Below are positions 3 through 15,681 of a stretch of DNA of 20,119 bases, one piece after another (position 1 is the stretch's first letter; every line of letters starts with the position of its first letter). Location of the stretch: IMG/VR virus record IMGVR_UViG_3300044956_000006, positions 1 to 20,119 of that record. One strand, given 5' to 3'. Source of the DNA: a virus. The position numbers were made by a program, and so were the translations under genes. The notes beneath the pieces were generated by a model. The model did no database searches and was not told the DNA's origin. It saw nothing but the letters and a program-made list of their open reading frames with translations.

Positions 3-809
3 CCGGTGGCAAATCAAGCCTTCCCGATGCTCGAGTATCTGGATCAGGTCCAGGCCAAGCGCACAGGTGTTTCTGATGCTTCCCAGGGTCTAGACCCGAA
101 CATCCTCCAGAATGTGACCGCCACGGCTGTGGCTGCATTCCAAAACGCTTCCTCTGGTAAGTTGGAACTCATCGCCCGGATCTTTGCCGAGACGGGTGTA
201 AAGAGTCTGTTCAAGGGCATCCTGCACCTGCTGTGCAAGTTTCAGGACAAGCCTCGGATCATTCGGATGCGCGGGGAGTATGTGCCGATGGACCCTCGAG
301 AGTGGTCGAATCAGTACGATGTGAGCATCTCTGTTGGGTTGGGGACTGGTAACCGCCAAGAGCAGATGGCGATGCTGGCGATGATCCTCGACAAGCAAGA
401 GCGCATCCTGCAGCAGTTTGGGCCTGGAAATCCTCTGGTGTCGGTGGCGCAGTACCGGGACACCCTCGGAAGGATGATCGAGGCCGCGGGGTTTAAGGAT
501 TCTGCGACATTCTTCAAGCCGGTCCCGCCCGAGGTGGATCAGGCTCTGTCCAACCCGCCTCCGCAGCAGCCTGATCCTGCGATCCAGGCGATGATGATGC
601 AGGCGCAGGCTCAACTGGAGATTGACCGCCAGAAGGCAATGGCCGATATTCAGGCCAAGAGGGAAAAGGCTGCGGCTGAGATTCGGCTTGCCAGGGAGAA
701 GGCTGCGGCAGAACTCCAACTCAGGCAGCAGGAGTTCGAGGCCGAGGTCCAGCTCAAGGCAGCGAAGATCGGCGCAGGCATCAGTGGCAATGTAGAGATT
801 CCGGGGTAA
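3..809 (+). CDS. Portal protein, C-terminal part (5' end outside window)
   Basis: This is the end of a phage portal protein, the dodecameric ring at the capsid vertex through which DNA is packaged and ejected. The frame is open to the left edge: a CCG codon precedes the GTG at 6, so that GTG is probably internal and the true start lies upstream. The segment RTGVSDASQGLDPNILQN followed by TATAVAAFQNAS, and the later helical GVKSLFKGILHLLCKF stretch, are typical of the clip/stem part of P22/SU10-type portals. From about residue 185 onward the visible protein turns into a Gln/Ala/Lys/Glu-rich heptad-like helix, consistent with a C-terminal barrel or crown. It is the first gene of the head module and ends 3 nt before the next start. 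Assignment is by family resemblance and position; identity as a portal is fairly sure, the subtype less so. Confidence 0.82.
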   Translation, partial: PVANQAFPMLEYLDQVQAKRTGVSDASQGLDPNILQNVTATAVAAFQNASSGKLELIARIFAETGVKSLFKGILHLLCKFQDKPRIIRMRGEYVPMDPREWSNQYDVSISVGLGTGNRQEQMAMLAMILDKQERILQQFGPGNPLVSVAQYRDTLGRMIEAAGFKDSATFFKPVPPEVDQALSNPPPQQPDPAIQAMMMQAQAQLEIDRQKAMADIQAKREKAAAEIRLAREKAAAELQLRQQEFEAEVQLKAAKIGAGISGNVEIPG

Positions 810-812
810 GAC

Positions 813-2309
813 ATGGCACTCACCACTGCACAGAAAAACGAACTAGCGACCCGGCTCATTGAAGCCCAACAGACCAACAATTACGGATCATTCAATGATC
901 TTGTAAAGCAACTGCGGCTGACTCAAACAGACTTTCTGGAGAACTTCCCCGCCATCAACCAGGCCGGGATAAATGAGCAGATTGGCCGAGGCGCTGTAGT
1001 CCCAAAGACCGCACCGGCTGCGACAACCTTCACCACTGGTCAAGTTTCAGCTGCTATTCGTGATGCCTTGAATGCCGGTTACACCGTCCAGCAGGCCCGA
1101 ATGGGCGCGATGACAAACTTCGGTTTGTCTTCAGAAGAATTCGACAAAGCCTTGAAAAGTATTCAGGGAAGCAGATACACCACCACATTCAGTGATGCTC
1201 AAGTGGCGCAAGCCATTAGAGACTCACTCGCGCAGGGGTTCACCTTTGACCAAGCTCGACAAGGCGCACTGGCGAACTATGGGGTAAGCGATACTCAGTT
1301 TGATCGCGCACTGGCTTTAGCCTCTGGAGGAGTTTTGGGCACAAGAGGGTCAGCCCCGCTTTACCAGTTTCCCGGGCTTCTAGCGGACCGTCAAGATATG
1401 CCAACCGGCGCACAACGGTTTATTTCACGCGCCCCTGGCTCGCTTTTGTTTGATGTGCCAAAGGTAGAGGGCGGTCAGTTCACCTTTACGCCTGGTGCTT
1501 TTGACTACAACGCCATCAGGAATCAGCAAGCTGGAGCAGATCAAGTTAAAGAGTTTGAAGCACAGCAGGCCCAGATTCAACCAACCGTCACAACAACACC
1601 AAAAACAACCCCAACAACGATCATTAAGCCGCCAGCTGCCCCTTATTCAGATGCTCAAGTCGCTCAGGCTCTCAAAGAGTCTATGGGCCAAGGGTTTAGT
1701 CTAGAGCAGTCTTTGTTTGGGGCTGCTTCAAAATACGGGATTACGCAAGATCAGCTTACTCGGGCACAGGCTCTGCTGCCATCAACAACTACGGCAGCCA
1801 CAAGCACCACGCCAACTGCGTCAACAGTTGTACCCTCGTCAAGTGTAAATACAGGCTTGACAGCTACCAGTCAATACACTGATGCTCAAGTCGCGCAGGC
1901 CATCAAAGAGTCTATGGCTCAGGGCTTCAGTTTGGTTGATTCAATGGCCGGGGCAACTCGAGTCTATGGAATCCCATCAGATCAGGTATATAGGGCTGCT
2001 GATTCTTTGTTTGCTACAAATCAAAACACCCAGCAAGGTTTGCCGCCTGAGGAAATCAACCAAGTGGTTGGCATTGAATACTTCAACACACAACCACCAT
2101 ATCAAGCCAATCTCCTAGCGCCAACAACGCAATTCAGTGATTTACAGATTGCTCAAGCAATCATGGATTCGCTTGGGCAGGGCTTTGACATGGGTCAGAT
2201 TCAGATGGGAGCATTTAACAACTTTGGTGTAGATCAGGAACAATTTACCCGTGCAGCAAGTTTGCTTCCGAGCATGGGATACACCATCGGCCAAGGATTC
2301 ACTCGGTGA
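813..2309 (+). CDS. Five-repeat phage protein between portal and scaffold, function unknown
   Basis: The 498-residue protein carries five copies of a repeat of about 45 residues, starting near residues 73, 126, 278, 355 and 441. The consensus is roughly [FY]-S-D-A-Q-V-A-Q-A-I-x2-S-[LM]-x-Q-G-F, then a GA pair, then [YF]-G-[VI], x3, Q-[FV]-x-R-A. Each repeat looks like three short helices. Copies are joined by Thr/Pro/Ser/Gln-rich linkers, most clearly at about residues 255-275 and 325-352. There is no signal peptide, membrane segment or catalytic motif. The ATG follows the portal stop by 3 nt and the end overlaps the next GTG start (GTGA), so it is cotranslated with head genes. A minor virion component or an assembly/ejection factor is inferred from position only. 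I cannot name a family. Confidence 0.8.
   Translation: MALTTAQKNELATRLIEAQQTNNYGSFNDLVKQLRLTQTDFLENFPAINQAGINEQIGRGAVVPKTAPAATTFTTGQVSAAIRDALNAGYTVQQARMGAMTNFGLSSEEFDKALKSIQGSRYTTTFSDAQVAQAIRDSLAQGFTFDQARQGALANYGVSDTQFDRALALASGGVLGTRGSAPLYQFPGLLADRQDMPTGAQRFISRAPGSLLFDVPKVEGGQFTFTPGAFDYNAIRNQQAGADQVKEFEAQQAQIQPTVTTTPKTTPTTIIKPPAAPYSDAQVAQALKESMGQGFSLEQSLFGAASKYGITQDQLTRAQALLPSTTTAATSTTPTASTVVPSSSVNTGLTATSQYTDAQVAQAIKESMAQGFSLVDSMAGATRVYGIPSDQVYRAADSLFATNQNTQQGLPPEEINQVVGIEYFNTQPPYQANLLAPTTQFSDLQIAQAIMDSLGQGFDMGQIQMGAFNNFGVDQEQFTRAASLLPSMGYTIGQGFTR
1029..2267 (+). repeat. Five dispersed copies of a 135-nt coding repeat
   Basis: The copies lie at 1029-1163, 1188-1322, 1644-1778, 1875-2009 and 2133-2267, all in the same reading frame and all 45 codons long. 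The first two are separated by 24 nt; the others by long linkers rich in Thr and Pro codons. The third and fourth copies are most alike: over their first 57 nt about 46 bases match, and many differences are at third codon positions. This suggests duplication followed by selection on the protein. Confidence 0.8.
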
Positions 2310-2536
2310 ACAAAGCAGAACGCGCTCAAACGCTCCTCAAGGACGAGTGGTTTCAAGAGGAAATCAAGTCCATCAGGAAAACACTCATAAGCCAGTTGAT
2401 GAACTCAAACGAAGTTGAGACAGAGATTCGAGAGCGGTGCTATTTGAAATTGCGCGTACTTGATGAAATAATGGGGCATTTTTCTTCCATAGCCTCGAGT
2501 GACCAGTTGGTCAAAAGGCGGTGGAAGATTCTGTAA
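2306..2536 (+). CDS. Small conserved phage protein, function unknown
   Basis: A 76-residue charged, mostly helical protein. The GTG start overlaps the upstream stop (GTGA) and has an AAGGA-type ribosome site about 10 nt upstream, so translation is probably coupled. The N-terminal NKAERAQTLLKDEWFQ and the central RERCYLKLRVLDEI-GHF pattern resemble small proteins that often sit between portal and scaffold genes in short-tailed phages and whose role is unknown. It has no cysteine pair, membrane segment or catalytic signature. It could be a head-assembly accessory, but that is inferred from location only. Confidence 0.65.
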   Translation: MNKAERAQTLLKDEWFQEEIKSIRKTLISQLMNSNEVETEIRERCYLKLRVLDEIMGHFSSIASSDQLVKRRWKIL

Positions 2537-2574
2537 GCGGCCAGGCGCATCCTGGTGAAACGAAGGAAACTGAA

Positions 2575-3519
2575 ATGGCAGACACCAACCCGCAAGGGAG
2601 TGCCTCGATGTCGGTGAACGAAGCCGCAGGCGCGTTTCTTGGACTGATGGAGCCGAAGGAAGCTGAACAAGCCGCTCCCGAAACTTCAGAACAAGAGGAG
2701 CGAGTCGAGGCGTCCGAGCCTGAAGAACACGAAACCCAGGAACAGGAAGCAGCACCCGAACCGCAGCGATTCCGTGTGAAAGCCGCTGGCGAGGAAAGGG
2801 AAGTCACTTTCGATGAACTGGTGGACGGGTATCAGAAGGGGCTGGACTACACCAAGAAGAATCAATTCGTAGCGGAGCAGCGTAAGGCTGTCGAAGCAGA
2901 TCGGATCGCCATTGAAGAGGCCAAGCGATTGAGGGACGCCTATTCTCAACGCTTAGGTCTGATTGAGCAGTTTCTTGAGAAACAAAATGAAGGTGAAGAC
3001 CTCAGTGCGTTGAAAGATGTTGACCCCCTTGGTTTCGCCGTCAAGGTTGCCGAGCGCACAGAGCGTGATAAGCAGCTGGCGATGTTGCGAGCCGAGCAGC
3101 AGCGGATTGCTCAACAGCAGACCGCCGAGCAGCAGGCCGACTTTGTGCAGTACATCAACAATGAAGCGAAGCGATTGGCTGAGTTCATTCCCGAATACGG
3201 CGACGAGAAAAAGTCCAACGAGGTCAAGCAGACGATCCGATCTTTTGCAAAAGAGATTGGATACAGTGATCGGGAACTTGCTCAGGCTTACGACCATCGC
3301 CATGTTCGTGTGCTGTGGATGGCGGCTCAATTGGCGGCCCTTCAAAAGCAGCGGCCAGAGCTAACCAAGAAAGTTCAAGACGCACCGAAGATGCTCCGTC
3401 CAGGCGTGGCGGCGAACCAAAAGAACGCTGCCGACGAGAACGTCAAGAAAGCCCACTCGCAGTTGAGGAAGTCTGGAAAAATCTCTGATGCTGCGGCCCT
3501 GTTTGAACGAATGCTTTAG
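2575..3519 (+). CDS. Capsid scaffolding protein
   Basis: This 314-residue protein is a putative internal scaffold that would guide coat protein into the procapsid. Residues about 24-62 are a strongly acidic Glu/Gln/Ala/Pro tract. Next comes FRVKAAGEEREVTFDELVDG with a following DYTKK, a pattern common in phage scaffolds, then long Gln/Ala/Glu/Arg coiled-coil helices (about 95-200). The C-terminus is basic (KKAHSQLRKSGKISDAAALF), like the coat-binding tail of known scaffolds. The frame is also open from a GTG at 2521, but the ATG at 2575 has an AAGGAAAC site 8-13 nt upstream and avoids overlapping the previous gene, so it is preferred. It sits directly before the major capsid gene, the usual order. 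No protease motif is visible. Confidence 0.8.
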   Translation: MADTNPQGSASMSVNEAAGAFLGLMEPKEAEQAAPETSEQEERVEASEPEEHETQEQEAAPEPQRFRVKAAGEEREVTFDELVDGYQKGLDYTKKNQFVAEQRKAVEADRIAIEEAKRLRDAYSQRLGLIEQFLEKQNEGEDLSALKDVDPLGFAVKVAERTERDKQLAMLRAEQQRIAQQQTAEQQADFVQYINNEAKRLAEFIPEYGDEKKSNEVKQTIRSFAKEIGYSDRELAQAYDHRHVRVLWMAAQLAALQKQRPELTKKVQDAPKMLRPGVAANQKNAADENVKKAHSQLRKSGKISDAAALFERML

Positions 3520-3527
3520 GAGCAAAA

Positions 3528-4475
3528 ATGACTCAATTCCGTACCTACGCTGCCATTGGTCAGCGGGAGGATTTGTCGGATGTGATCTACAACATCTCGC
3601 CGACTGACACCCCGTTCATGTCCACGATTGGCAAAAACAAGGCCACTGCCGTCTATCACGAATGGCAGACCGACTCGCTTGCAGCAGCAGCGACTAACGC
3701 TGCGGTGGAAGGTGCTGACGCATCAACTGCCACGCTGTCGCCCACGGTTCGCGTTGGCAACCGCACTCAGATTTCCCAGAAGACCATTGGTGTGACGGGA
3801 ACCCTGGAGGCTGTTAACAAGGCTGGCCGCAAGTCTGAGATGGCCTACCAGCTTGCAAAGGCTTCGAGCGAAATCAAGCGCGACATGGAGTTCACGCTCC
3901 TGAACAACACCGTCCAGAGCAACGGAAGCGCTGGTTCAACTGCTCGCGTGTTGGGTGGCTTGCAGACTTGGCTGGCGACCAATGGTGACTTTGGCACCAG
4001 CGGCGCTGCTGGATCGCTTGGCACAACCGCTCGCACGAACGGCACAAACCGCACCTTTACAGAGGCGCTGTTGCAAACCGTCGTGAGGGAGGTGTTTGAG
4101 TCCGGTGGTTCTCCGAAGATCCTGATGGTTACGCCTGCCCACAAGCAGACCGTGTCGGCCTTTACGGGTATCGCTGCACAGCGCTACATGGCTCCTTCGG
4201 ATGCTCCCACCACCATAATTGGCGCGGCAGACATCTACCTGTCGGACTTCGGTTCGATGAGCGTAGTGCCTAACCGCTTCATGGTGGCGGGCAACTCTGC
4301 AAACGAAGTGGCCTTTGTGCTGGACCCCGAGTATGCATCGGTGGCGTATCTGCGGCCTTTCTTTACCAACGACCTGGCGAAGAACGGTGACGCTGATCGC
4401 ACACAGCTGCTTGTGGAGTACACGCTTGAGGTCAAGAATGAGGCCGCTCACGGCATCATCGCTGATCTTTTGTAA
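3528..4475 (+). CDS. Major capsid protein, SU10/DUF5309-like
   Basis: A 315-residue HK97-fold coat protein, the main shell component of the head. The opening region (QREDLSDVIYNISPTDTPFM), then the HEWQTDSL segment, the RVGNRTQISQKTIGVTGT strand and the ELAK-like helix ending in KRDMEFTLLNN, match the SU10-type major capsid family (DUF5309) as I know it. The C-terminal half has the usual ILMVTPAHKQTVSAFTG spine segment and ends with AAHGIIADLL. AGGAG lies 6 nt before the ATG. It follows the scaffold by 8 nt and is followed by an intrinsic terminator, which fits a need for high expression of this gene relative to those downstream. No N-terminal delta domain or cleavage site is obvious, in line with a separate scaffold gene. 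Confidence 0.88.
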   Translation: MTQFRTYAAIGQREDLSDVIYNISPTDTPFMSTIGKNKATAVYHEWQTDSLAAAATNAAVEGADASTATLSPTVRVGNRTQISQKTIGVTGTLEAVNKAGRKSEMAYQLAKASSEIKRDMEFTLLNNTVQSNGSAGSTARVLGGLQTWLATNGDFGTSGAAGSLGTTARTNGTNRTFTEALLQTVVREVFESGGSPKILMVTPAHKQTVSAFTGIAAQRYMAPSDAPTTIIGAADIYLSDFGSMSVVPNRFMVAGNSANEVAFVLDPEYASVAYLRPFFTNDLAKNGDADRTQLLVEYTLEVKNEAAHGIIADLL

Positions 4476-7806: not shown

Positions 7807-8585
7807 TGTTTCGAGTCCTTCCTCCGTTTGGCGCTGATCCTCGAGGGATCGCGGAGGTCGTCAATGGCTTGATGAACGGCAAGTCCAACAACACCGGGAC
7901 GGTGACCCTTTCCACGGGCGGGGCCACAACGACCACGATCTACGATGCCCGGATCAGCCCAGAGTCCAAAATCATCCTGGTTCCGTATTCGGCGGCGGCA
8001 TTCTTAGACCGTGTGCCTTATGGGGCGTTCCAGGACTCAACAGACCAGAATGCGGCTTCCACGACCACGGCATACGCAATAACCCTTAACACCACCGACC
8101 ACACAAACGGGGTATCAATCTCCAATTCGTCCAGAATAAATGTCACAAATCCAGGCCTGTACAACATTCAGTTCTCGATTCAATTGCAGAACGCAGACAC
8201 GCAGATTCAGGATGTTGATATTTGGTTCAGAAAGAACGGGTCGGATGTTGCGGCCTCAAACAGCAAGTTTTCTGTACCAAATAGGCACGGTGGCGTCAAT
8301 GGACACCTTATCGCTGCTCTAAATTATTTTATTGAACTGGTGGCTGGCGACTATGTGGAAATCATGTGGGCAACCGGCAGCACCCAGGTGAGCATTGAGC
8401 AATTGGCCGCGCAGACAAGCCCGACAAGGCCAACAACGCCGTCTGTCATCGTCACGGTTTCTTTTGTCTCGACGGCTTCGATTCAGAATGTCTATGTCAG
8501 TTCTCAGTCGCAGGGGAGTGCGGTGGTGACCCATTTTGCCAATTCCACAGCGGACAAGACTTTTGCTTATGTGGTGGTGGGATGA
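7806..8585 (+). CDS. Virion protein with C1q-like jelly-roll domain
   Basis: A 259-residue protein. Residues 1-65 hold an opening seen in many short-tailed phage structural proteins: PRGIAEVVNGLMNGK, then Thr-rich strands TLSTGGATTTTIYD and SKIILVP. Residues about 67-222 resemble a C1q/TNF-type jelly roll: PYGAFQDSTDQ, SRINVTNPGLYNIQFSIQL, VDIWFRKNG, VPNRHGG, YFIELVAGDYVEIMWAT and VIVTVSF. Such trimeric folds occur in phage receptor-binding or tail-needle parts. The last 37 residues are a separate small strand region. Its ATG overlaps the previous stop (TGATG), and its stop overlaps the next start (ATGA). An upstream ATG at 7752 would add 18 residues but lies inside the previous gene and has no good ribosome site. 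Confidence 0.62.
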   Translation: MFRVLPPFGADPRGIAEVVNGLMNGKSNNTGTVTLSTGGATTTTIYDARISPESKIILVPYSAAAFLDRVPYGAFQDSTDQNAASTTTAYAITLNTTDHTNGVSISNSSRINVTNPGLYNIQFSIQLQNADTQIQDVDIWFRKNGSDVAASNSKFSVPNRHGGVNGHLIAALNYFIELVAGDYVEIMWATGSTQVSIEQLAAQTSPTRPTTPSVIVTVSFVSTASIQNVYVSSQSQGSAVVTHFANSTADKTFAYVVVG

Positions 8586-8974
8586 ATGTCCGCTTGATTT
8601 CTCCCAACGATCTGAGACAATGGTGGAGATTCGTCAGGCCAGGTCTGAAGCAGATCCTGCATAAGACGCCCGAGAACTGGATACCCGAGGACATCTACAC
8701 AGACTGTTTTAATGGGAAGTCCATGCTCTGGGTGGGATTGGATGACGCAAGGCCAGTGGGGTTCATGGTGTTGCAACCCAAAGGACGCACCCTTCATGTT
8801 TGGTGCGCGTACTTGGCCGAAGCCGGTTACTTTGAAGAGGGCTGGCAGCATCTCATGAACATAGCTCAACAAGGTGATGCCCAGCGCATTACTTTTGAAT
8901 CTTGGCGTCCGGGTTGGGCGCGTAAAGCTCAACAACTCGGATTTAAGCCCCGTTCATGGGCACTGGAGGTCTAA
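8582..8974 (+). CDS. GNAT-fold-like protein, possible gp13-type virion factor
   Basis: A 130-residue protein with the layout of a small GNAT acetyltransferase: an N-terminal helix pair (SPNDLRQWWRFVRPGLKQ), a strand MLWVGLDDARPVGFMVLQP, a second strand LHVWCAYLA, a helix EEGWQHLMNIAQQ, then RITFESWRPGW and a C-terminal ARKAQQLGFKPRSWALEV of the usual late-GNAT type. The acetyl-CoA loop (Q/RxxGxG/A) is not clear, so enzyme activity is doubtful. T7 gp13, a similar-sized GNAT-like protein coded just before the T7 internal virion proteins, holds the same genomic place and is an attractive parallel. The start overlaps the previous stop (ATGA), and the next gene begins directly after its stop. Confidence 0.5.
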   Translation: MNVRLISPNDLRQWWRFVRPGLKQILHKTPENWIPEDIYTDCFNGKSMLWVGLDDARPVGFMVLQPKGRTLHVWCAYLAEAGYFEEGWQHLMNIAQQGDAQRITFESWRPGWARKAQQLGFKPRSWALEV

Positions 8975-10099
8975 ATGGGTGGCGGTGGAAGCACAGTAAC
9001 TCGCACGGAGCTTGACCCAAATGTCGCTCCGTATGTCACTTATGGACTCAGTGAGGCACAGCGTCTATACGCCACTCCAACGCCTCAATACTATCCAGGG
9101 CAGACTTACATCAGCCCATCCCAGCAGACTCAAGCCGCACTTTCCGCTGCACAGACTCGGGCGCTTGCCGGGAGTCCTTTGGTTGGCCGGGCGCAAGGAA
9201 CCGTTTCTGCGTTGATGCAGGCGCAAAACCCTGCTCTTGGCGCATACCAGCAGCTTTACAACACGGCTTCTCGTGATCCGTCTCTCGGGTTTTATGAGGC
9301 TCTAAAGCAGGGCGAGATGGTCAATCCTGCGATGCAGCAGGCACGGAAAACCGCAGGCGGTGAATATCTTGGGCTAAGTCCGTTCTTCAATCAGGCATTT
9401 GATCCTGCTGCTCAACGCGCCCAACAGCAATACACGGATGCAATCCGTCAGATTCAGTCTACTGCTTCTCGTTCTGGGCGATATGGGTCTGGCGCTGCTC
9501 AGGAACTTCAAGACCGCGCCGCGGCTCAGTTCGCTCAAGCCCTGACGGGGACCGCCGGTCAACTGGCATATCAAGGCTACGGAATGGAGCGAGGTCTCCA
9601 AGAGCAGGCGATTGGCCGACTCGGTGCTTTGGGTCAGCAAGAACTTGCTAATCGCTTGGCTGGCGCTGGCGCACTTGGTGCTGAGGCGCAGCAGGCTTAT
9701 CAGAATCAACTTGCTGCTGCCAGTGGTGTTGGGACTCTTGCGAGTCAGGACTTGGCTCGCCAGATGGCTGCTGCTCAGTTGGCTCCGTCGTTGGCAGAGA
9801 CTGAATACGGCGACATCAATAAACTTCTCCAGGTCGGGCAAGCAGCGGAACAGTATCAGCAGGCTGCGCTCGAGGCAGATCTTCAGCGGTTCAATTTCCA
9901 GCAGAATCTTCCATCTGCCAAACTTCAGCAGTTCTTGTCTGCTGCGTATGGCTCCCCGATGGGCGGGATTCAAGTCAGCCCGATTTACAGAAACCCGTTG
10001 GCTGGTGCTGCGGGTGGCGCGATTCTTGGCAATGTTTTAACTCAAGGCGGCACTACCGGAACGGCAGCAGGTGCGCTCCTTGGGGGGCTACTGGGATGA
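8975..10099 (+). CDS. Putative internal (ejection) virion protein with glycine zipper
   Basis: A 374-residue Ala/Gln/Gly-rich protein. It opens MGGGGSTVTRTELDPNVAPY and continues through QYYPGQTYISPSQQTQAAL. The middle is long Ala/Gln helices (about 130-290), including SRSGRYGSGAAQELQDRAAA and TAGQLAYQGYGMERGLQEQA. After an RFNFQQNLPSAKLQQFL region it ends with small-residue hydrophobic segments, AGAAGGAILGNVLTQ and GTAAGALLGGLLG, that could insert in membranes. P22 and T7-type ejected proteins share this kind of make-up: they leave the capsid before DNA and form a channel across the cell envelope. The gene abuts the GNAT-like gene and its stop overlaps the next start (ATGA). The ejection role is inferred from composition and place. 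Confidence 0.6.
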   Translation: MGGGGSTVTRTELDPNVAPYVTYGLSEAQRLYATPTPQYYPGQTYISPSQQTQAALSAAQTRALAGSPLVGRAQGTVSALMQAQNPALGAYQQLYNTASRDPSLGFYEALKQGEMVNPAMQQARKTAGGEYLGLSPFFNQAFDPAAQRAQQQYTDAIRQIQSTASRSGRYGSGAAQELQDRAAAQFAQALTGTAGQLAYQGYGMERGLQEQAIGRLGALGQQELANRLAGAGALGAEAQQAYQNQLAAASGVGTLASQDLARQMAAAQLAPSLAETEYGDINKLLQVGQAAEQYQQAALEADLQRFNFQQNLPSAKLQQFLSAAYGSPMGGIQVSPIYRNPLAGAAGGAILGNVLTQGGTTGTAAGALLGGLLG

Positions 10100-10638
10100 G
10101 CGGAGCAGAGCCAATCCTTGCAGCTGAGGCTATTGGAACTGTTGCGGCGGGTACTGCGGCCGCTGAGGCGGCTGCGGCTGCGGAGGCATTGGCGGCTGCT
10201 GAGGCGGCTGCGGCTGCACAAGCTGCTGCGACTGCTGCTCAGGCCACTACTGCGATGGAGGCGACTTCTGCTGCGGCTTCCGCTAGTAATGTTGCAAACC
10301 CGTTCTTTGATCCATCTCAGTACGCAAGGCAGTTTTCGCAAGGTTTGCTTCAAAGCTTTAGTGGGCTTCCTATTGATCCCTCGCTAGGCAATCTTGCTAA
10401 CGCTCCTGGCGCTAGTCTTGCTCCTGGTAGCTTTCGGCCTGAGTTGCTTGGTAAAACCGCAGGCGGGATGACTCTGATGCAGGGACTCCAGGCTGCTCGT
10501 ATGGTTAGCTCATTAGGCCCGAAACAACAGACCGCAGTTGGGCCGCCGATGCGCCGTGGTCAGCCAGTGAATCTAATGCGGCCTGCTTCGCTGCTTGAGC
10601 AGAAGCGCAAGCGCAACCCGATCATTTCTCTGCTGTGA
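10096..10638 (+). CDS. Alanine-rich putative internal virion protein
   Basis: A 180-residue protein whose first 68 residues are a long low-complexity Ala/Glu/Thr/Ser helix (AAEAAAAAEALAAAEAAAAA is the core), coded by GCT/GCG/GCC-rich DNA. This is followed by a different region with NPFFDPSQYARQFSQGLLQ, then FRPELLGKTAGGMTLMQG, and a basic C-terminus QKRKRNPIISLL. It starts in an ATGA overlap with the preceding putative ejection protein. The helical tract suggests a coiled-coil or membrane-active partner of its neighbours; this is inference. The ORF itself is solid, given the overlap chain and the ordered C-terminal half. Confidence 0.6.
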   Translation: MSGAEPILAAEAIGTVAAGTAAAEAAAAAEALAAAEAAAAAQAAATAAQATTAMEATSAAASASNVANPFFDPSQYARQFSQGLLQSFSGLPIDPSLGNLANAPGASLAPGSFRPELLGKTAGGMTLMQGLQAARMVSSLGPKQQTAVGPPMRRGQPVNLMRPASLLEQKRKRNPIISLL

Positions 10639-10645
10639 GGAATAA

Positions 10646-11935
10646 ATGAACGAACTACTCGCACAGCTCTTCGGTCAGCAGCCCGCATACGCCACAGACC
10701 TTCTTGGTGAGGAAGAGGCTCGCCGTCTGAGGCAGCAGGCCCAACAACAGGGCTTGTTGAATGTTGGTTTGTCTCTCTTGGCGGGGTCTGGGCCTTCGGC
10801 ACAGCCTCGAGGGATTGGGCAGCTTCTCGCCCAAGGCGTTCAAGCTGGTCAACAGGCATACCAGGGGGCGTATACCCGCGCACTCCAAGAGCAGGCTCTG
10901 AGGGAGCAACTCGCAGAGCGCCGCCAGCTTCAGATGGAGCAGCAGGCTGCAAGGCAACTCCTTCCGCAGATTCTGCGACCTGGCGCACAGACACCGACCT
11001 TCTATGGTCAGCCCACACAGATGCCTCTGCGTGATGACGAAGGTAACATCATGCCCGGTGCCGGTGTATCTGTTGGTCAGCCTCAGATTGATATGAACAC
11101 GCTTCGACAACTGTTGACGCAGGCTCCGAGCGTGGCTGGTAAGGTTCTGCCGACGGTTGAGGCATTCCGTAAGATGACTGCTCCTGAGCGCCTTACCTTG
11201 AGTGAGGGACAGCAGGTCTTTGAGATGACACCGGAAGGCCCGCGAGCGATTGCTGGTGCTCCGAAGCAAGAGAAGCCAACATCGGATATTCAGGAGTACA
11301 ACAAAGCTGTTGAGCAGGGCTTCAAGGGGTCATTTCTTGATTACCAGACCCAACTCCAGCAGGCTGGCGCAACTCGCGTGAATGTTGATACCGCAGGACC
11401 AAGGGAGTTTGAAAAGAAAGCCGCTGGATTTGCTGCTGAGAATTTCAACAACCTTCGTACTCAAGCAACTGCAGCATCGCGCAATCTAATCCAGGTCGGA
11501 CGACTTGAGAACCTTCTGCAGTCAACTGGTGGTGGACTTGTGCCGCAAGCAAAAGCCATTGCAGGTAATCTTGGAATCCCAATCAAGGGACTTGATGACA
11601 TTCAGGCTGCAACAGCAATTATTAATTCAATGATTCCTCAACAGCGTCCACCTGGCTCCGGTACGATGTCTGACAAGGATGTCGAACTCTTCAAGTCTTC
11701 GCTGCCGCGACTCATCAATCAGCCGGGCGGCAATCAGAAGATCATTGACACGATCAAGGCAATCAACCAATACGATCAGCAGATCGGCAAGATTGCAAAC
11801 GATGCGCTGGCCGGGAAAATTAAGCCTCAAGAAGCCGACGAATTGATTAGCAAAGTCCCGAACCCGTTGGCTGTTCCAGTTGCCGGGAAGTTGGTCTTCA
11901 ACCCCAAAACTGGGCGGCTTGAGGAGCAAAAATAA
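10646..11935 (+). CDS. Putative internal (ejection) virion protein
   Basis: A 429-residue protein. The first 115 residues are Gln/Ala/Leu-rich helices with hydrophobic GLLNVGLSLLAGSG and a LGEEEARRLRQQAQQQ segment, as in many phage internal virion proteins. The middle (about 185-225) has a beta-like ERLTLSEGQQVFEMTPEGP. The C-terminal half contains a helical ALRTQATAASRNLIQVGRLE-type stretch (residues 265-290), a loop PQQRPPGSGTMSDKDVELFK and a final FNPKTGRLEEQK. GAGGA lies just before the ATG, and the stop overlaps the next start (TAATG). By analogy with the set of three ejection proteins of P22 (gp7, gp16, gp20), this and its neighbours may act together in delivery; this is inferred from position and composition. 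Confidence 0.6.
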   Translation: MNELLAQLFGQQPAYATDLLGEEEARRLRQQAQQQGLLNVGLSLLAGSGPSAQPRGIGQLLAQGVQAGQQAYQGAYTRALQEQALREQLAERRQLQMEQQAARQLLPQILRPGAQTPTFYGQPTQMPLRDDEGNIMPGAGVSVGQPQIDMNTLRQLLTQAPSVAGKVLPTVEAFRKMTAPERLTLSEGQQVFEMTPEGPRAIAGAPKQEKPTSDIQEYNKAVEQGFKGSFLDYQTQLQQAGATRVNVDTAGPREFEKKAAGFAAENFNNLRTQATAASRNLIQVGRLENLLQSTGGGLVPQAKAIAGNLGIPIKGLDDIQAATAIINSMIPQQRPPGSGTMSDKDVELFKSSLPRLINQPGGNQKIIDTIKAINQYDQQIGKIANDALAGKIKPQEADELISKVPNPLAVPVAGKLVFNPKTGRLEEQK

Positions 11936-13485
11936 TGGCGATCACGGTTCAGCTTCCTGATGGGCGCACTGCTGAATTCCCGGATGGGATGAGCCGTGCA
12001 GAGATTGAAGAAATCCTAAAGAAACAATTTCCACCACCGGAAGAGCAGCCTAGTGCTTTGGTTCGTGGCGCTGGATTGGTTACTCGAGCAGCCGCGCCAA
12101 CCCTAGTCGGCGCACAACTTGGAGCAGCCGGTGGCCCAATGGGGGCTGTTCTTGGCTCTGTAGCGGTTCCTGCTGCTGATGTTCTTAATCAGCTTCTGAA
12201 TGCAATTGCTTCGCCGTTTACCGATAGGCGACTGATGCCTGCTAGTCAGGCGATTCAGAATTTGATGACTCGTGCAGGTGTTCCTGCCGCGCCAGAGACT
12301 CAAACTCCAACCGAGCGAGTGGCTTTTGCTGGCTTGGAGACCATGACATCTCTTGGCCGCACTCTTCCAGAGTTCATTCGGCGTGGAGCTGAGGTTGCCC
12401 CTTCTTTTGCTCAGGGCATCTCTCGTCAAATGGCGGTTGCTCCTAGAACTCAGGCGGCAGTCGCGCCTACTGCGGTAATGGCTGGTCAAACGGTCACAGA
12501 GGCTACGGATAGTCCGTTGGCTGGTCTTGCAACGACATTGGCAACCGGGGCTGTTGGAGGAATGAAGCGGCCTCAACGAGAGGTCCCGCCTCAGCAGGTT
12601 TTAAGTCGAGTCGCTGAGGATAGATATGCCCAACTGCAAGAGTCTGGGATTCAACTAAACAATGAAGCCTTTACTCAGCAGATGAGCAAGATTGCCAAGA
12701 CTCTGCGTAATGAGGGATATACACCCACTGGATACCCAAAGATCACTGGGGCGATTGAAGAACTGACATCAACAGCACAGCCGAAGGATTGGACGGAGCT
12801 TCAGGCTCTGCGCAAGATGATTAAGTCTGGTCAAAAGAGTGTTGACCCAGAAGAGCGCCGTCTTGCGTCTATTCTTCTTGATGAGTACGACAGCTATCTA
12901 ACCACTGTTCCAAAGACGGACATTGTTGCCGGTGATGGCAAGGCTGTTGGTAAGGCTTGGGACGAGGCCCGAAACGCTTATTCTCGGATGAAGAAGGCCG
13001 AGGTCTTTGAGGATATGCTTGAGGCCGCAAAGCTAGATCGAAGCAAGTTCACTCAGTCTGGTGAAGAGAACTCTCTGGCAAAACAACTGCGTGATCTCGC
13101 CAAAAATGAGAAGCGTATGCGCCTGTTCACCAAAGAAGAGCAGCAGGCAATTACCAAGGCCGCACAGGGCGGGACACCTCAAAACCTTCTGAAATTCTTT
13201 GGGCGTTTTGCTCCAACCGGACCAGTCGCAGGTATCTTTACTGGCGGCATGACTGTTGCTAATCCTTATGTCGGAGTTCCTGCTGCGACTGCCGCTGCAC
13301 TATCTCGGGCCGGTGCCGCTGGTATGCGCCGCTCATCGGTTGAGGATTTGGCAAACATCATGCGAGCAGGCCAGATCCCGCAGGTTACTGGTGGAGTAAT
13401 GCGAGCGGCCCCGGCGATCACAGCTCAAGGCCTGTTGACTCTTCCAGAAATCGAGGAAGAGCAACTGCGGTTCTTGGGCCGCTAG
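11935..13485 (+). CDS. Putative large internal (ejection) virion protein
   Basis: A 516-residue protein. Residues 1-35 form a small ubiquitin-like opening (ITVQLPDGRTAEFPDGMSR, then AEIEEILKKQFPPP) that recurs at the N-terminus of phage internal proteins. Residues about 42-100 are hydrophobic and rich in Ala and Gly (LVGAQLGAAGGPMGAVLGSV), a possible membrane segment. The middle (about 215-400) is charged helix with RVAEDRYAQLQESGIQLN, a LRKMIKSGQKSVDPEERRL segment and AYSRMKKAEVFEDMLEAAK. The end has a second Gly/Ala tract, PTGPVAGIFTGGMTVANPY. No lysozyme or transglycosylase catalytic motif is clear. It overlaps the previous stop (TAATG) and is the last gene before the fiber set. Confidence 0.62.
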   Translation: MAITVQLPDGRTAEFPDGMSRAEIEEILKKQFPPPEEQPSALVRGAGLVTRAAAPTLVGAQLGAAGGPMGAVLGSVAVPAADVLNQLLNAIASPFTDRRLMPASQAIQNLMTRAGVPAAPETQTPTERVAFAGLETMTSLGRTLPEFIRRGAEVAPSFAQGISRQMAVAPRTQAAVAPTAVMAGQTVTEATDSPLAGLATTLATGAVGGMKRPQREVPPQQVLSRVAEDRYAQLQESGIQLNNEAFTQQMSKIAKTLRNEGYTPTGYPKITGAIEELTSTAQPKDWTELQALRKMIKSGQKSVDPEERRLASILLDEYDSYLTTVPKTDIVAGDGKAVGKAWDEARNAYSRMKKAEVFEDMLEAAKLDRSKFTQSGEENSLAKQLRDLAKNEKRMRLFTKEEQQAITKAAQGGTPQNLLKFFGRFAPTGPVAGIFTGGMTVANPYVGVPAATAAALSRAGAAGMRRSSVEDLANIMRAGQIPQVTGGVMRAAPAITAQGLLTLPEIEEEQLRFLGR

Positions 13486-13529: not shown

Positions 13530-14834
13530 ATGCCGAAGACAAAAATCTCAGAATTCTCCGCAACCGCAGGAAACAACACCGACATTGACGGTATCAACAT
13601 AGCGGAGGGCTGTGCGCCTTCTGGCATCAACGATGCCATCCGTGAGTTGATGGCGCAGCTGAAGGACTTCCAGGCCGGTGATGCTGGAGACCCGATCACG
13701 GTGGTTGGGACGCTTGGCGCGAAGGGAACCTCCTCTGTAGCGGGTGACCTGAAGCTCTATGAGCAGACCACGAACGGCACGAATTACGCTGGATTCAAGT
13801 CTCCGACCTCTCTAGCGGCGAACATCCAATGGGTGCTTCCGAATGCTGATGGAACGGCCAACCAGGTTCTCAAGACTGACGGATCTGGCAATCTTGGGTG
13901 GGCCACAGCCGCTACTGGTGATGTTGTTGGGCCTTCATCGGCAACAGACACGGCCATTGCGTTGTTTGACTTGACGACGGGCAAGTTGATCAAAAACAGC
14001 GTGGTCACCGTATCTGCGGCGGGCGCAATTGTTGCACCGCAAGCAGGCAGCACAATTCCCTTTTACTTTGCCAACCAAGCGGCGTTCCCCTCTGCATCTA
14101 CTTCTCACGGCGCAATAGCGCATTCACATGCAGACGGGGCCATGTACTACGCCCACGGGGGGAGTTGGGTACAACTTTTATCTTCGGGCGGCGCACTTGG
14201 CACTCCCTCTTCAGGCACGCTGACCAATGCTACGGGCCTGCCTTTGACCACGGGGGTCACGGGTACTCTGCCTGTTGCCAACGGCGGCTCTGGCGCGGTC
14301 ACACTGACCGGAGTTTTGAAGGGCAACGGCACATCTGCATTCTCTGCGGCGACAGCAGGCACTGACTATGTGGCCCCGGCAACGGCCACGACCTTCACAG
14401 CGACACAGACCTTCTCGGGCACTTCGTCTGCCTTGGGAATGATCCTCAATGACGCTGCTGAGGTTGTGACTGTCTCGGCGACTGCTGCCACGGGAACCAT
14501 CAACTACGATGTCACCACCCAGTCGGTTCTTTATTACACATCCAACGCCTCTGCGAATTGGACGGTGAACTTCCGCGCTTCTTCGGGGACTTCGCTCAAC
14601 ACAGCCATGTCCACGGGGCAGAGCGTGACGGTGGCCCTCCTTGTAACTAACGGCGCAACGGCGTATTACAACTCTGCTGTGCAAGTTGATGGAACAAGCG
14701 TCACTCCAAAATATCAAGGTGGCACGGCGTTCTCTTCGGGGAACGCAAGTTCAATTGATGTATACGCCTACACGATCATTAAAACGGCATCGGCCACCTT
14801 TACGGTCTTGGTCTCGCAGACCAAATTTGCATAA
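13530..14834 (+). CDS. Tail fiber protein
   Basis: A 434-residue putative tail fiber. Residues 1-50 (TKISEFSATAGNNTDIDGIN, then APSGINDAIRELMAQLKDF) are a common virion-attachment opening in fibers of short-tailed phages. A strand-rich shaft follows with IQWVLPNADGTANQVLKTDG. Around 170-205 lies FYFANQAAFPSASTSHG with AHSHADGAMYYAHGG, a motif often seen in fibers. Then come Gly/Thr turns, GTPSSGTLTNATGLPLTTGV and GTLPVANGGSGAVTL. The last 120 residues form a compact beta domain ending SATFTVLVSQTKFA. An AAGGAG site lies 6 nt upstream of the ATG. It leads a three-gene recognition set with the glycine-rich protein and the assembly chaperone. Confidence 0.82.
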   Translation: MPKTKISEFSATAGNNTDIDGINIAEGCAPSGINDAIRELMAQLKDFQAGDAGDPITVVGTLGAKGTSSVAGDLKLYEQTTNGTNYAGFKSPTSLAANIQWVLPNADGTANQVLKTDGSGNLGWATAATGDVVGPSSATDTAIALFDLTTGKLIKNSVVTVSAAGAIVAPQAGSTIPFYFANQAAFPSASTSHGAIAHSHADGAMYYAHGGSWVQLLSSGGALGTPSSGTLTNATGLPLTTGVTGTLPVANGGSGAVTLTGVLKGNGTSAFSAATAGTDYVAPATATTFTATQTFSGTSSALGMILNDAAEVVTVSATAATGTINYDVTTQSVLYYTSNASANWTVNFRASSGTSLNTAMSTGQSVTVALLVTNGATAYYNSAVQVDGTSVTPKYQGGTAFSSGNASSIDVYAYTIIKTASATFTVLVSQTKFA

Positions 14835-14844
14835 GGAGTCCACC

Positions 14845-15681
14845 ATGCCGATGCTTGGTACACGCGGAGCAGCCTCGGCCCGAGGGTTTGGGCTTCTTTC
14901 GCGTTCTGATGGCCCCAGTCAGCAAGAATACACAACGCCCGGCACTTACACCTGGGTCTGCCCTGCGGGCGTGACTTCTGTTTCTGTTGTTTGCGTTGGG
15001 GGCGGAGGCGGCGGCGGAGGCGGCGGTGGAAGCGCTGGTGCCGGGGGAGGTGCGCTTGCTTACGCCAACAACATTTCGGTTACAGCAGGAAGTTCTTATA
15101 CCGTTGTTGTTGGTTCTGGCGGGGCCTCTAGTCCACCTACTGATGGTGGGAATAGCAGTTTTAATTCAACCACCGTAAGAGCAGGGGGCGGCAAATCTTC
15201 CACTCGTGCAGGTGGAACTGTACTTAACGGAACCGGCGGTGCAGGCGGCAGCGGGGGATCGGGTGATGTCAATCTTGGCGGGGGCGGCGGAGCAGGTGGA
15301 TACGCAGGGTCTGGTGGAAATGGATCGGCCGGAACTTATGACAATGCTTGGAATTTTGGTAACGATGGTGCGGGTGGTGGTGGCGCCGGGGGCCCAGGCG
15401 GTAATTCTGCGGCGGGAACCGCGGGCTCCGGCGGCGGCGTTGGTATTTTGGGGCAAGGTTCTAGCGGCAACGGCGGTTATATTACTTTTCCCGATGGAAC
15501 TATTTTACAGTCAACCGGTGGAAGCGGTGGCGGTAACGCACTGAATAATGGAACGCCGGGATCTTATGGTGGCGGCGCAGCACCTGGCAATAGTGTCACT
15601 TCGGGTGCTGGTGGCGCAGTTCGGATTATTTGGCCCGGAACAACTCGTCAGTTTCCTTCAACTAACACGGGGAATGTGTAA
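14845..15681 (+). CDS. Glycine-rich tail adhesin
   Basis: A 278-residue glycine-rich protein, likely a receptor-binding tip. Residues about 28-60 fit the start of a Gly-rich domain: EYTTPGTYTWVCPAGVTSVS, then an uninterrupted run of eleven glycines. From there to about 260 the chain is built of GG-x-GG units with Asn, Ser and Ala, interrupted by short strand segments such as YTVVVGSGG and GYITFPDGTILQST. This is the make-up of polyglycine II sandwich adhesins such as S16 gp38. It ends GGAVRIIWPGTTRQFPSTN, an ending I recognise from such phage proteins. The frame is open back to 14686, but the ATG at 14845 has AAGGAG 6 nt upstream, while the earlier start lies wholly inside the fiber gene. The stop abuts the next start (TAAATG). 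Confidence 0.78.
   Translation: MPMLGTRGAASARGFGLLSRSDGPSQQEYTTPGTYTWVCPAGVTSVSVVCVGGGGGGGGGGGSAGAGGGALAYANNISVTAGSSYTVVVGSGGASSPPTDGGNSSFNSTTVRAGGGKSSTRAGGTVLNGTGGAGGSGGSGDVNLGGGGGAGGYAGSGGNGSAGTYDNAWNFGNDGAGGGGAGGPGGNSAAGTAGSGGGVGILGQGSSGNGGYITFPDGTILQSTGGSGGGNALNNGTPGSYGGGAAPGNSVTSGAGGAVRIIWPGTTRQFPSTNTGNV

Follow-up and report, generated by a model that had tools for sequence, protein, structure and literature searches.

A variable slot between phage portal and scaffold genes and the five-unit repeat protein encoded in it

The window (the whole stretch of DNA analysed here, 20,119 bases) is an entire virus record, the start of which falls within a portal gene. The window features from the portal to the two ORFs after the ejection gene, described in this paragraph, are on the plus strand. 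The C-terminal part of the portal protein (3..809) was identified based on matches to PHROG 1216 (E 3e-56) and Pfam SU10_portal (E 2.7e-71). It is followed by a gene with an ATG start for a protein of 498 aa, with a net charge of -9, a pI of 4.8 and an array of five repeat units (813..2309; hereafter the slot protein). The right-hand border of the slot is a 76-aa gene (2306..2536), which has a homologue between slot and scaffold in relatives. Genes for a head scaffolding protein (2521..3519; PHROG 3927, E 2.6e-50) and the major head protein (3528..4475; PHROG 1328, E 1.3e-111) come next. An earlier note on this DNA had placed the repeat gene among the head genes, after the portal and before the scaffold, and this position is supported. 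Also encoded are a DNA ejection protein (8975..10099; PHROG 4287, E 6e-17) and, 3' of it, two ORFs of 180 and 429 aa (10096..11935) that may have a role in ejection, given their position. The slot gene follows the portal gene and lies outside this ejection-gene cluster.

The ORF at 11935-13485 has PHROG 21712, labelled 'major head protein', as its best PHROG match (E 1e-25). Given that this ORF comes after the ejection gene and that a different gene encodes a major head protein of this phage, the label may be a mis-annotation. The ORF at 14686-15681 (331 aa), which overlaps the end of 13530-14834 in another frame, is very Gly-rich and fibre-like by eye. A small ORF occurs immediately before the ejection gene both in the window (8582-8974; sole match PHROG 610, a family of unknown function, E 6e-4) and in record L173 (4934-5344; acetyltransferase-like by eye). 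Upstream of terminase in two relatives, L009 (1319-2296) and L028 (223-1296), are genes that match ART-PolyVal (PF18760) at E 4.7e-5 and 7.7e-5. These values are under the curated cut-off, so the genes encode only possible polyvalent-type ADP-ribosyltransferases.

The five in-frame 45-residue repeats described previously in 813-2309 were confirmed. An N-terminal region (residues 1-66; 813..1010), with predicted helices at 5-21, 25-33, 38-44 and 50-58, precedes copies 1 (residues 73-117; 1029..1163) and 2 (residues 126-170; 1188..1322). Further along are copies 3 (residues 278-322; 1644..1778), 4 (residues 355-399; 1875..2009) and 5 (residues 441-485; 2133..2267). The top off-diagonal identity over 45 residues in the protein is 28/45, and the maximum over 200 shuffles is 15. 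The domains were thought to be identical; the copies in fact differ, with pairwise identities of 9-28 of 45. The linkers had been described as Thr/Pro-rich. This is correct ahead of copy 3, at the end of 171-277 (PTVTTTPKTTPTTIIKPPAAP), and before copy 4, where a Thr/Ser/Pro-rich linker (residues 323-354; 1779..1874) is 66% S/T/P. Overall, 171-277 is 26% and 400-440 is 24% S/T/P. The 8-residue linker at 118-125 is 50% S/T/P. The N-terminal region was considered as a further unit copy and rejected: none of seven unit/N-terminal groups matched in profile comparison (best E 0.039).

Nine distinct relatives were tested with a profile of the five copies. It identified five copies in L003 (a 99%-identical relative), four copies each in L005, L006, L007, L008, L009, L011 and L023, and three copies plus one partial (E 5e-5) in L028, from which copy 2 is missing. 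Copy 3 is, by alignment, absent from the four-unit relatives. Units of the array seem to have been gained, lost and exchanged. Copies 3 and 4 do have 46 of their first 57 bases in common, as noted earlier, but the recent copying proposed to account for this was not borne out, because copy 3 is nearer to units of other phages than to copy 4. The two copies have 28 residues in common, with an identical codon at 13 of the 28. Copy 3 is identical at 34/45 residues to a unit of L040, 32/45 to L044, 30/45 to L042 and 29/45 to L046, followed by copy 4 and two other units at 28/45. In the DNA, 96/135 bases are identical to L040, 91/135 to L044 and 85/135 to copy 4. The nearest sequences to copy 4 are its counterparts in L023, L008, L028 and L005 (33-35 of 45). 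We relied on these identities instead of a unit tree, as the tree has few columns and 3 of 24 branches starred.

Structure prediction, which the earlier note had called for, yielded a predicted repeated fold and not the absence of one, and the earlier description of small helical domains arranged in tandem and joined by linkers is supported. The full-length model (mean pLDDT 51.6, pTM 0.22) has three helices per copy, N-terminal helices and linkers of low confidence; because this model is poor, no arrangement of the beads is readable from it. Copy 5 predicted alone, with 33 units aligned, has a pLDDT of 88 and helices at 6-19, 23-34 and 38-47. Foldseek matches at E up to 10 numbered 105 among solved structures, and matches at the same limit numbered 261 among viral structure models, with none at 0.001 in either set. 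A sequence search of solved structures found none for the slot protein at E 1, and the unit profile returned four chance-level rows (best E 1.2). The top VIA-align score (Z 6.1, rmsd 2.2 over 46) is for the Pex14 N-terminal domain; ribosome chains (Z about 5), KorB (Z 4.9, rmsd 2.2 over 46) and a TrpR-like protein (Z 4.2) follow. For this predicted model, the scores are all within the range of common three-helix arrangements, and other three-helix chains tie with or outscore KorB.

The KorB and TrpR-like rows are relevant to the suggestion that the protein is a tandem helix-turn-helix array that binds DNA and organises or marks packaged DNA. Consistent with this, the whole-protein score for HTH_Tnp_1 (PF01527) is 30.2 versus a Pfam cut-off of 24.1 (E 5e-7), and a helix-turn-helix PHROG (686) matches at E 0.0013. 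However, no stretch of the window slot protein passes alone for PF01527 or for HTH_54 (PF18607), and at E 0.1 HTH_Tnp_1 is matched in just four of eight family members and HTH_54 in seven. The fold rows are a mix of three-helix proteins, none significant by Foldseek. Further, the net charge of 33 units ranges from -4 to +1 (mean about -1.6), and such mostly acidic units make DNA, one of the partners put forward earlier, less likely. We regard a DNA-binding array as very improbable, the least probable of the explanations considered here.

No single stretch of the slot protein has an accepted domain match in Pfam or PHROG, in agreement with the earlier statement that it has no known head-protein signature. 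No confident match to a domain of known function, which would have counted against the earlier reading, appeared. The 45-residue unit also has no accepted domain match in the libraries searched. The UBA-like model UBA_DHX29 (PF24899) matches proteins of L045 (E 3e-4) and L042 (E 0.095), both under cut-off, and is not among the matches of the window slot protein at E 1. There is no match to DUF4214 (PF13946) anywhere in the window record.

Values of pN and pS were determined for the window versus L023, L005 and L028. The pS is 0.54-0.91 in all regions. The pN of the portal is 0.04-0.06, that of the slot-protein N-terminal region 0.07-0.12 (conserved like copy 2) and that of a middle element discussed below 0.12-0.21. 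Unit regions (copies 1, 2 and 4, and copy 5 together with the C-terminus) have pN 0.06-0.26 in 10 of 11 comparisons; the value for copy 4 versus L028 is 0.36, with 28 codons aligned only. For the linkers, pN is 0.46-0.51. The units are under purifying selection. The low pN in units and middle element and high pN in linkers indicate that units and middle element are maintained and that linkers drift.

A profile of 33 units matched 74 ORFs at 1e-3 in six-frame translations of 174 sequences, many of the 74 being one contig represented repeatedly, and the same ORFs reversed gave nothing at E up to 10. Full-length and shorter units match each other in profile comparison (E 3.6e-10, 0/100 column-shuffled controls as good) with two short units present in both sets left out. 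By eye, the unit is present in at least five different protein architectures. In L038, L039 and L041 the unit protein is in the same slot and has one full-length and one shorter unit. In L042, L044 and L046 unit proteins are encoded downstream of PHROG 3287 genes, and in L045 two units occur on an Ala-rich linker. L173 encodes a 793-aa protein in which two units were confirmed by the profile and a further, similar stretch was recognized by eye. A single small ORF separates its gene from a PHROG 3287 gene (E 7e-57) on one side and from a DNA ejection gene of PHROG 4287 (E 2e-9) on the other; the PHROG 4287 match of the next gene in L044 is weak (E 0.064).

The N-terminus of the MW202710 slot protein matches the shorter unit (E 4.3e-7 over 40 columns, 0/100 column-shuffled controls as good). 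It was not found with a profile of 25 full-length units, and the 33-unit profile matched the whole protein at E 0.005 only. Full-length units match the N-termini of L121/L122 (5e-5) and L142 (1.4e-4), again with 0/100 column-shuffled controls as good. For the L083-type N-terminus, E is 7e-4 over 28 columns, which is only a hint, as the lowest E among reversed controls is 0.0088 and values near 0.001 deserve little weight. Searches of named phages with tblastn yielded, for the window slot protein, nothing at E 0.01 and five chance-level records at E 10; for five other slot/unit proteins, nothing at 1e-3; and for the MW202710 slot protein, its self-match only. Seventy-six stretches in prokaryote genomes fit the unit pattern, of which 0 were confirmed.

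The slot was surveyed with a portal-profile scan, in the best 80 of at least 563 confirmed loci, and the interval is complete in 65 of these. The slot ORF scored is the longest ORF between portal and 76-aa gene; in L123, L134 and L135 some 370 bases separate the portal stop from its start, and thus another gene may precede it. In these best 80 of at least 563 loci, the slot is filled (ORF of at least 100 aa) in 54/65 complete intervals, by 46 distinct proteins of 283-1080 aa (median 557), and empty in 11/65, where portal and 76-aa genes overlap. It is directly 3' of the portal and 5' of the 76-aa gene in all family members with both sides in the locus. The 76-aa gene is matched in most survey loci (that of the window has no match in L139, L140 and L146), and scaffold and head protein are matched wherever they are in view.

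The portal C-terminal region is at least 89% (rounded) identical to that of the window in 31 of the 65 loci (best 80 of at least 563). At seven of the 31 the slot protein matches that of the window, two of the seven being near-identical copies of the window phage, and at 24 (21 distinct proteins) it has no tblastn match to the window protein at E 1e-3. The slot protein is thus variable and mosaic relative to the portal. The frequent occurrence of a quite different protein at this position in close relatives gives the impression of an interchangeable accessory slot, and these comparisons speak for an accessory module, next to the portal gene, that close relatives swap. By all-against-all BLAST (1e-5, single linkage), 72 of 82 distinct slot proteins, including cut ones and that of the window, form one chain; the remainder fall into groups of 5, 4 and 1. 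On this sequence evidence, the slot proteins are mosaics of common modules and not 46 unrelated families.

The modules include the 45-residue unit, DUF4214, GDSL/SGNH esterase and apparent coiled-coil rods. Among the 46 distinct slot proteins (best 80 of at least 563 loci), Pfam models identified DUF4214 in 10, GDSL/SGNH esterase in nine, HTH_Tnp_1 in three and HTH_54 in two, and the unit profile identified the 45-residue unit in 10 (six of window type, three that have two units each, and L142, which has a single unit). In three (L116, L139 and L146) the C-terminus gives a match to PHROG 3547, a tape-measure family, and for one of the SGNH slot proteins there is a match to a tail fiber family of PHROG (E 1.5e-9). 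A hydrophobic segment is present in 11/65 slot proteins, and there is none such in the window protein. 

In the slot proteins of L107-L112, a repeat of ~20 residues (DLTSLQDQLTSLKDLYQP and variants), likely a coiled-coil rod by eye, continues through much of the L107 protein. The C-termini of L116, L139 and L146 carry a GEYVVRKKAVNKYG..FLEALN-type motif, and a similar GEFVV motif was seen by eye in the L173 array protein. Matches of rod-like variants to minor-head, SbcC-like and other families were not relied on, nor were those of the Hpt and Phage_scaffold models, each of which matches 4/46 slot proteins.

The esterase and DUF4214 modules, the apparent rods of L107-L112 and the tail fiber match are all features that would suit a surface appendage, displayed outside the head or at the neck, that binds or trims host-surface glycans. 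The beads would then be a multivalent adhesin. Frequent replacement next to conserved genes and Thr/Pro-rich linkers are also in keeping with such an appendage. However, the slot gene is apart from the tail genes, the L173 unit array is near an ejection gene, and the slot protein is free of Cys, His and Trp like the ejection-region ORFs, whereas the fibre-like ORFs at 13530-14834 and 14686-15681 have all three. We consider a surface appendage rather unlikely, though second among the explanations weighed.

Twelve named relatives were read, chosen among 60 of 306 records with a head-protein match. The portal of one, MW202496, lies outside the stretch. No slot protein is present in eight of the 11 with portal and scaffold in view (Venkman, ctXG6705, ctyzp037, phiM5, HTVC106P, PaP3, ctjtQ328 and RHph_N3_2), and the slot is filled in three: MW202710, MW202462 and MJing1, which has two genes there and whose portal, scaffold and head protein were confirmed by tblastn. 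The MJing1 (Microcystis phage; L152:3019-5225) slot genes encode a 231-aa protein that is weakly methyltransferase-like (E 6.5e-5, under cut-off) and a 504-aa protein with DUF7178. The record of phiM5 marks its GDSL protein as detected in the particle proteome. At E 0.01, BLAST found no match to the slot proteins for this protein or for the two from the MJing1 slot.

The slot ORF appears dispensable, given that it is missing in 11/65 related contigs (best 80 of at least 563 loci) and in 8/11 named relatives. This, and the weakly methyltransferase-like gene in MJing1, would be expected if the gene encoded a non-virion protein, expressed late among the head genes and acting on a target inside the host cell. 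The tape-measure-like ends of three slot proteins, and a C-terminal element common to the otherwise different groups C1 and C2 (97%, see below), instead suggest a common structural context. An intracellular late protein is, in our assessment, unlikely, and is placed third, after the surface appendage. Lower still we place an assembly helper, in other words an accessory to portal or scaffold in head assembly that is absent from the mature particle. The position between portal and scaffold would suit this, as would the lack of Cys, which is shared with the scaffold. Yet relatives whose portal, scaffold and head protein are recognisable lack the protein or have another in its place, and module swapping is hard to reconcile with a helper of this kind; we find it improbable, ahead only of the DNA-binding array.

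Between copies 2 and 3 is a conserved middle element (residues 178-236; 1344..1520; RGSAP..GAQRF..PGSLLFDVP..PGAFDYNAI), a candidate docking element based on weak profile matches and low pN. Residues 170-262 (8 distinct sequences) were compared by hhalign with the terminal elements of four slot-protein groups, C1-C4. The same stretch matches C2 (3 sequences; E 1.9e-4) and C1 (19 sequences; E 0.0019), in each case with 0/100 column-shuffled controls as good, at hhalign probabilities of just 47% and 14%, respectively. Comparisons with C4 (5 sequences; E 0.022, 2/100 controls as good) and C3 (20 sequences; E 0.12, 17/100 controls as good) were not beyond controls. The hhalign probability for C1 versus C2 is 97%, and for C3 versus C4 only 20%. 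A docking function for residues 178-236 is weakly supported by these alignments, and the element would not be common to all slot proteins.

The window slot protein has no Cys, His or Trp. All three are absent from four of the 23 window ORFs taken as genes: 813-2309, 8975-10099, 10096-10638 and 10646-11935. In 65 distinct complete slot proteins (36,941 residues), Cys is absent from 65/65 and His from 53/65, with His at 0.04% and Trp at 0.25%. The aligned parts of other proteins at the same loci contain 0.79% His, 0.49% Cys and 0.66% Trp (portal), 0.63%, 0.00% and 0.15% (scaffold, Cys-free in 51/51), and 0.85%, 0.09% and 0.67% (head protein). As Cys and Trp are low in the scaffold too, only the joint lack of His and Cys stands out in slot proteins (53/65, versus 1/64 for portal, 11/51 for scaffold, 0/44 for head protein and 6/47 for the 76-aa gene). 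The P22 proteins gp7, gp20 and gp16 have 0.66-1.27% Cys+His+Trp, versus 1.32-4.24% in six other P22 proteins, and T7 gp14, gp15 and gp16 have 1.02-2.28% versus 1.30-5.42% in five others. T7 gp14 contains a Cys, and T7 gp16, at 2.28%, shows no depletion when set against the portal or scaffold of that phage (1.3%). The 793-residue L173 array protein contains 7 His. The trend is a hint that fits ejection proteins and is not decisive.

We tentatively favour, at somewhat less than even odds, a role for the slot protein as a portal-docked virion accessory protein that is delivered, or acts, during entry in the manner of podovirus ejection proteins. We place this ahead of the surface appendage, the intracellular late protein, the assembly helper and the DNA-binding array, in that order. 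The gene would fill a hypervariable accessory slot between portal and scaffold, and its product would be a virion protein assembled with the portal. The conserved element at residues of about 178-236 may dock the protein near the portal, and the remainder may be an interchangeable module that leaves the head with the ejection proteins, or acts alongside them, on entry. The module of the window phage would be five mostly acidic 45-residue beads, each of three predicted helices, on mobile linkers. The beads probably bind several copies of, or sites on, one envelope or ejectosome partner.

Several lines of evidence point to this ejection-type role: the position of the slot by the portal, the contrast between constrained units and free linkers, the turnover at 24/31 near-identical-portal loci, the lack of Cys, His and Trp shared with the ejection-region ORFs, the location of the L173 array near an ejection gene, the PHROG 3547-like ends of 3/46 slot proteins, and the weak match of the middle element to two groups. 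There is also a precedent in T7 gp6.7, a small protein that is bound to the portal and ejected, according to the available part of PMC11784390. Counting against it, neither sequence nor profile comparison links the slot protein to a known ejection family in PHROG or Pfam, its gene is outside the ejection cluster, the composition is only a hint, the docking match is weak and does not exceed controls for C3 and C4, the window protein is without a hydrophobic segment, and the GDSL/SGNH and rod modules would be in keeping with a surface fibre as well.

A broader proposal, possible but held more loosely than the ejection-type role itself, is that the portal-scaffold interval of this podovirus group is a dedicated cargo slot. 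Interchangeable modules (bead arrays, esterases, DUF4214 proteins, rods) would be loaded at the portal vertex through a short conserved element and be delivered into the host envelope during entry. If so, the slot would amount to a naturally occurring cassette for protein delivery with swappable contents, and the 45-residue bead to a mobile domain new among phage virion proteins. Should the slot protein be part of the virion, the difference between phages with near-identical portals would lie in an entry module next to the portal that can be swapped. The slot would then provide a handle on the host-envelope features that select phage variation and a site to study the loading of proteins into heads.

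Mosaic virion accessory proteins are already known; the portal-scaffold slot and the unit are not, as far as our searches reach. Among the literature matches listed, including the available part of PMC10386132, there is no recognised description of the slot or the repeat; most subscription papers are outside this scope. In the available parts of two other papers, the words 'portal' and 'scaffold' are absent (PMC8024684) or 'portal' occurs just in a reference (PMC9004378).

Comparison with known systems gives a mixed picture. As in HTH_Tnp_1 (PF01527) and HTH_54 (PF18607), the unit has a predicted three-helix core; unlike in these families, no stretch of the slot protein passes alone and the units are mostly acidic. 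The ejection proteins of podoviruses vary in size, diverge fast and swap domains, according to the available part of PMC8954989, and the slot proteins resemble T7 gp14/15/16 and P22 gp7/20/16 in all three respects. Like the P22 ejection proteins, the slot protein is low in Cys, His and Trp. Unlike the T7 and P22 ejection proteins, it has no sequence match to them, is encoded elsewhere in a phage with its own ejection gene at 8975, and is missing in 11/65 relatives (best 80 of at least 563 loci). The proteins of L038, L039, L041, L048, L051 and L121 occupy the same slot, the first four with one full-length and one shorter unit. Their main body differs, and they lack a five-unit array; DUF4214 is matched in L041, L051 and L121 and not in L038 or L039. 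The proteins of L042, L044, L045, L046 and L173 differ from the window protein in their other domains and have no adjoining recognised portal, and four of them (L042, L044, L046 and L173) are encoded downstream of PHROG 3287 genes. They are like it in having the same unit and no Cys (the contig end truncates L042 and L046).
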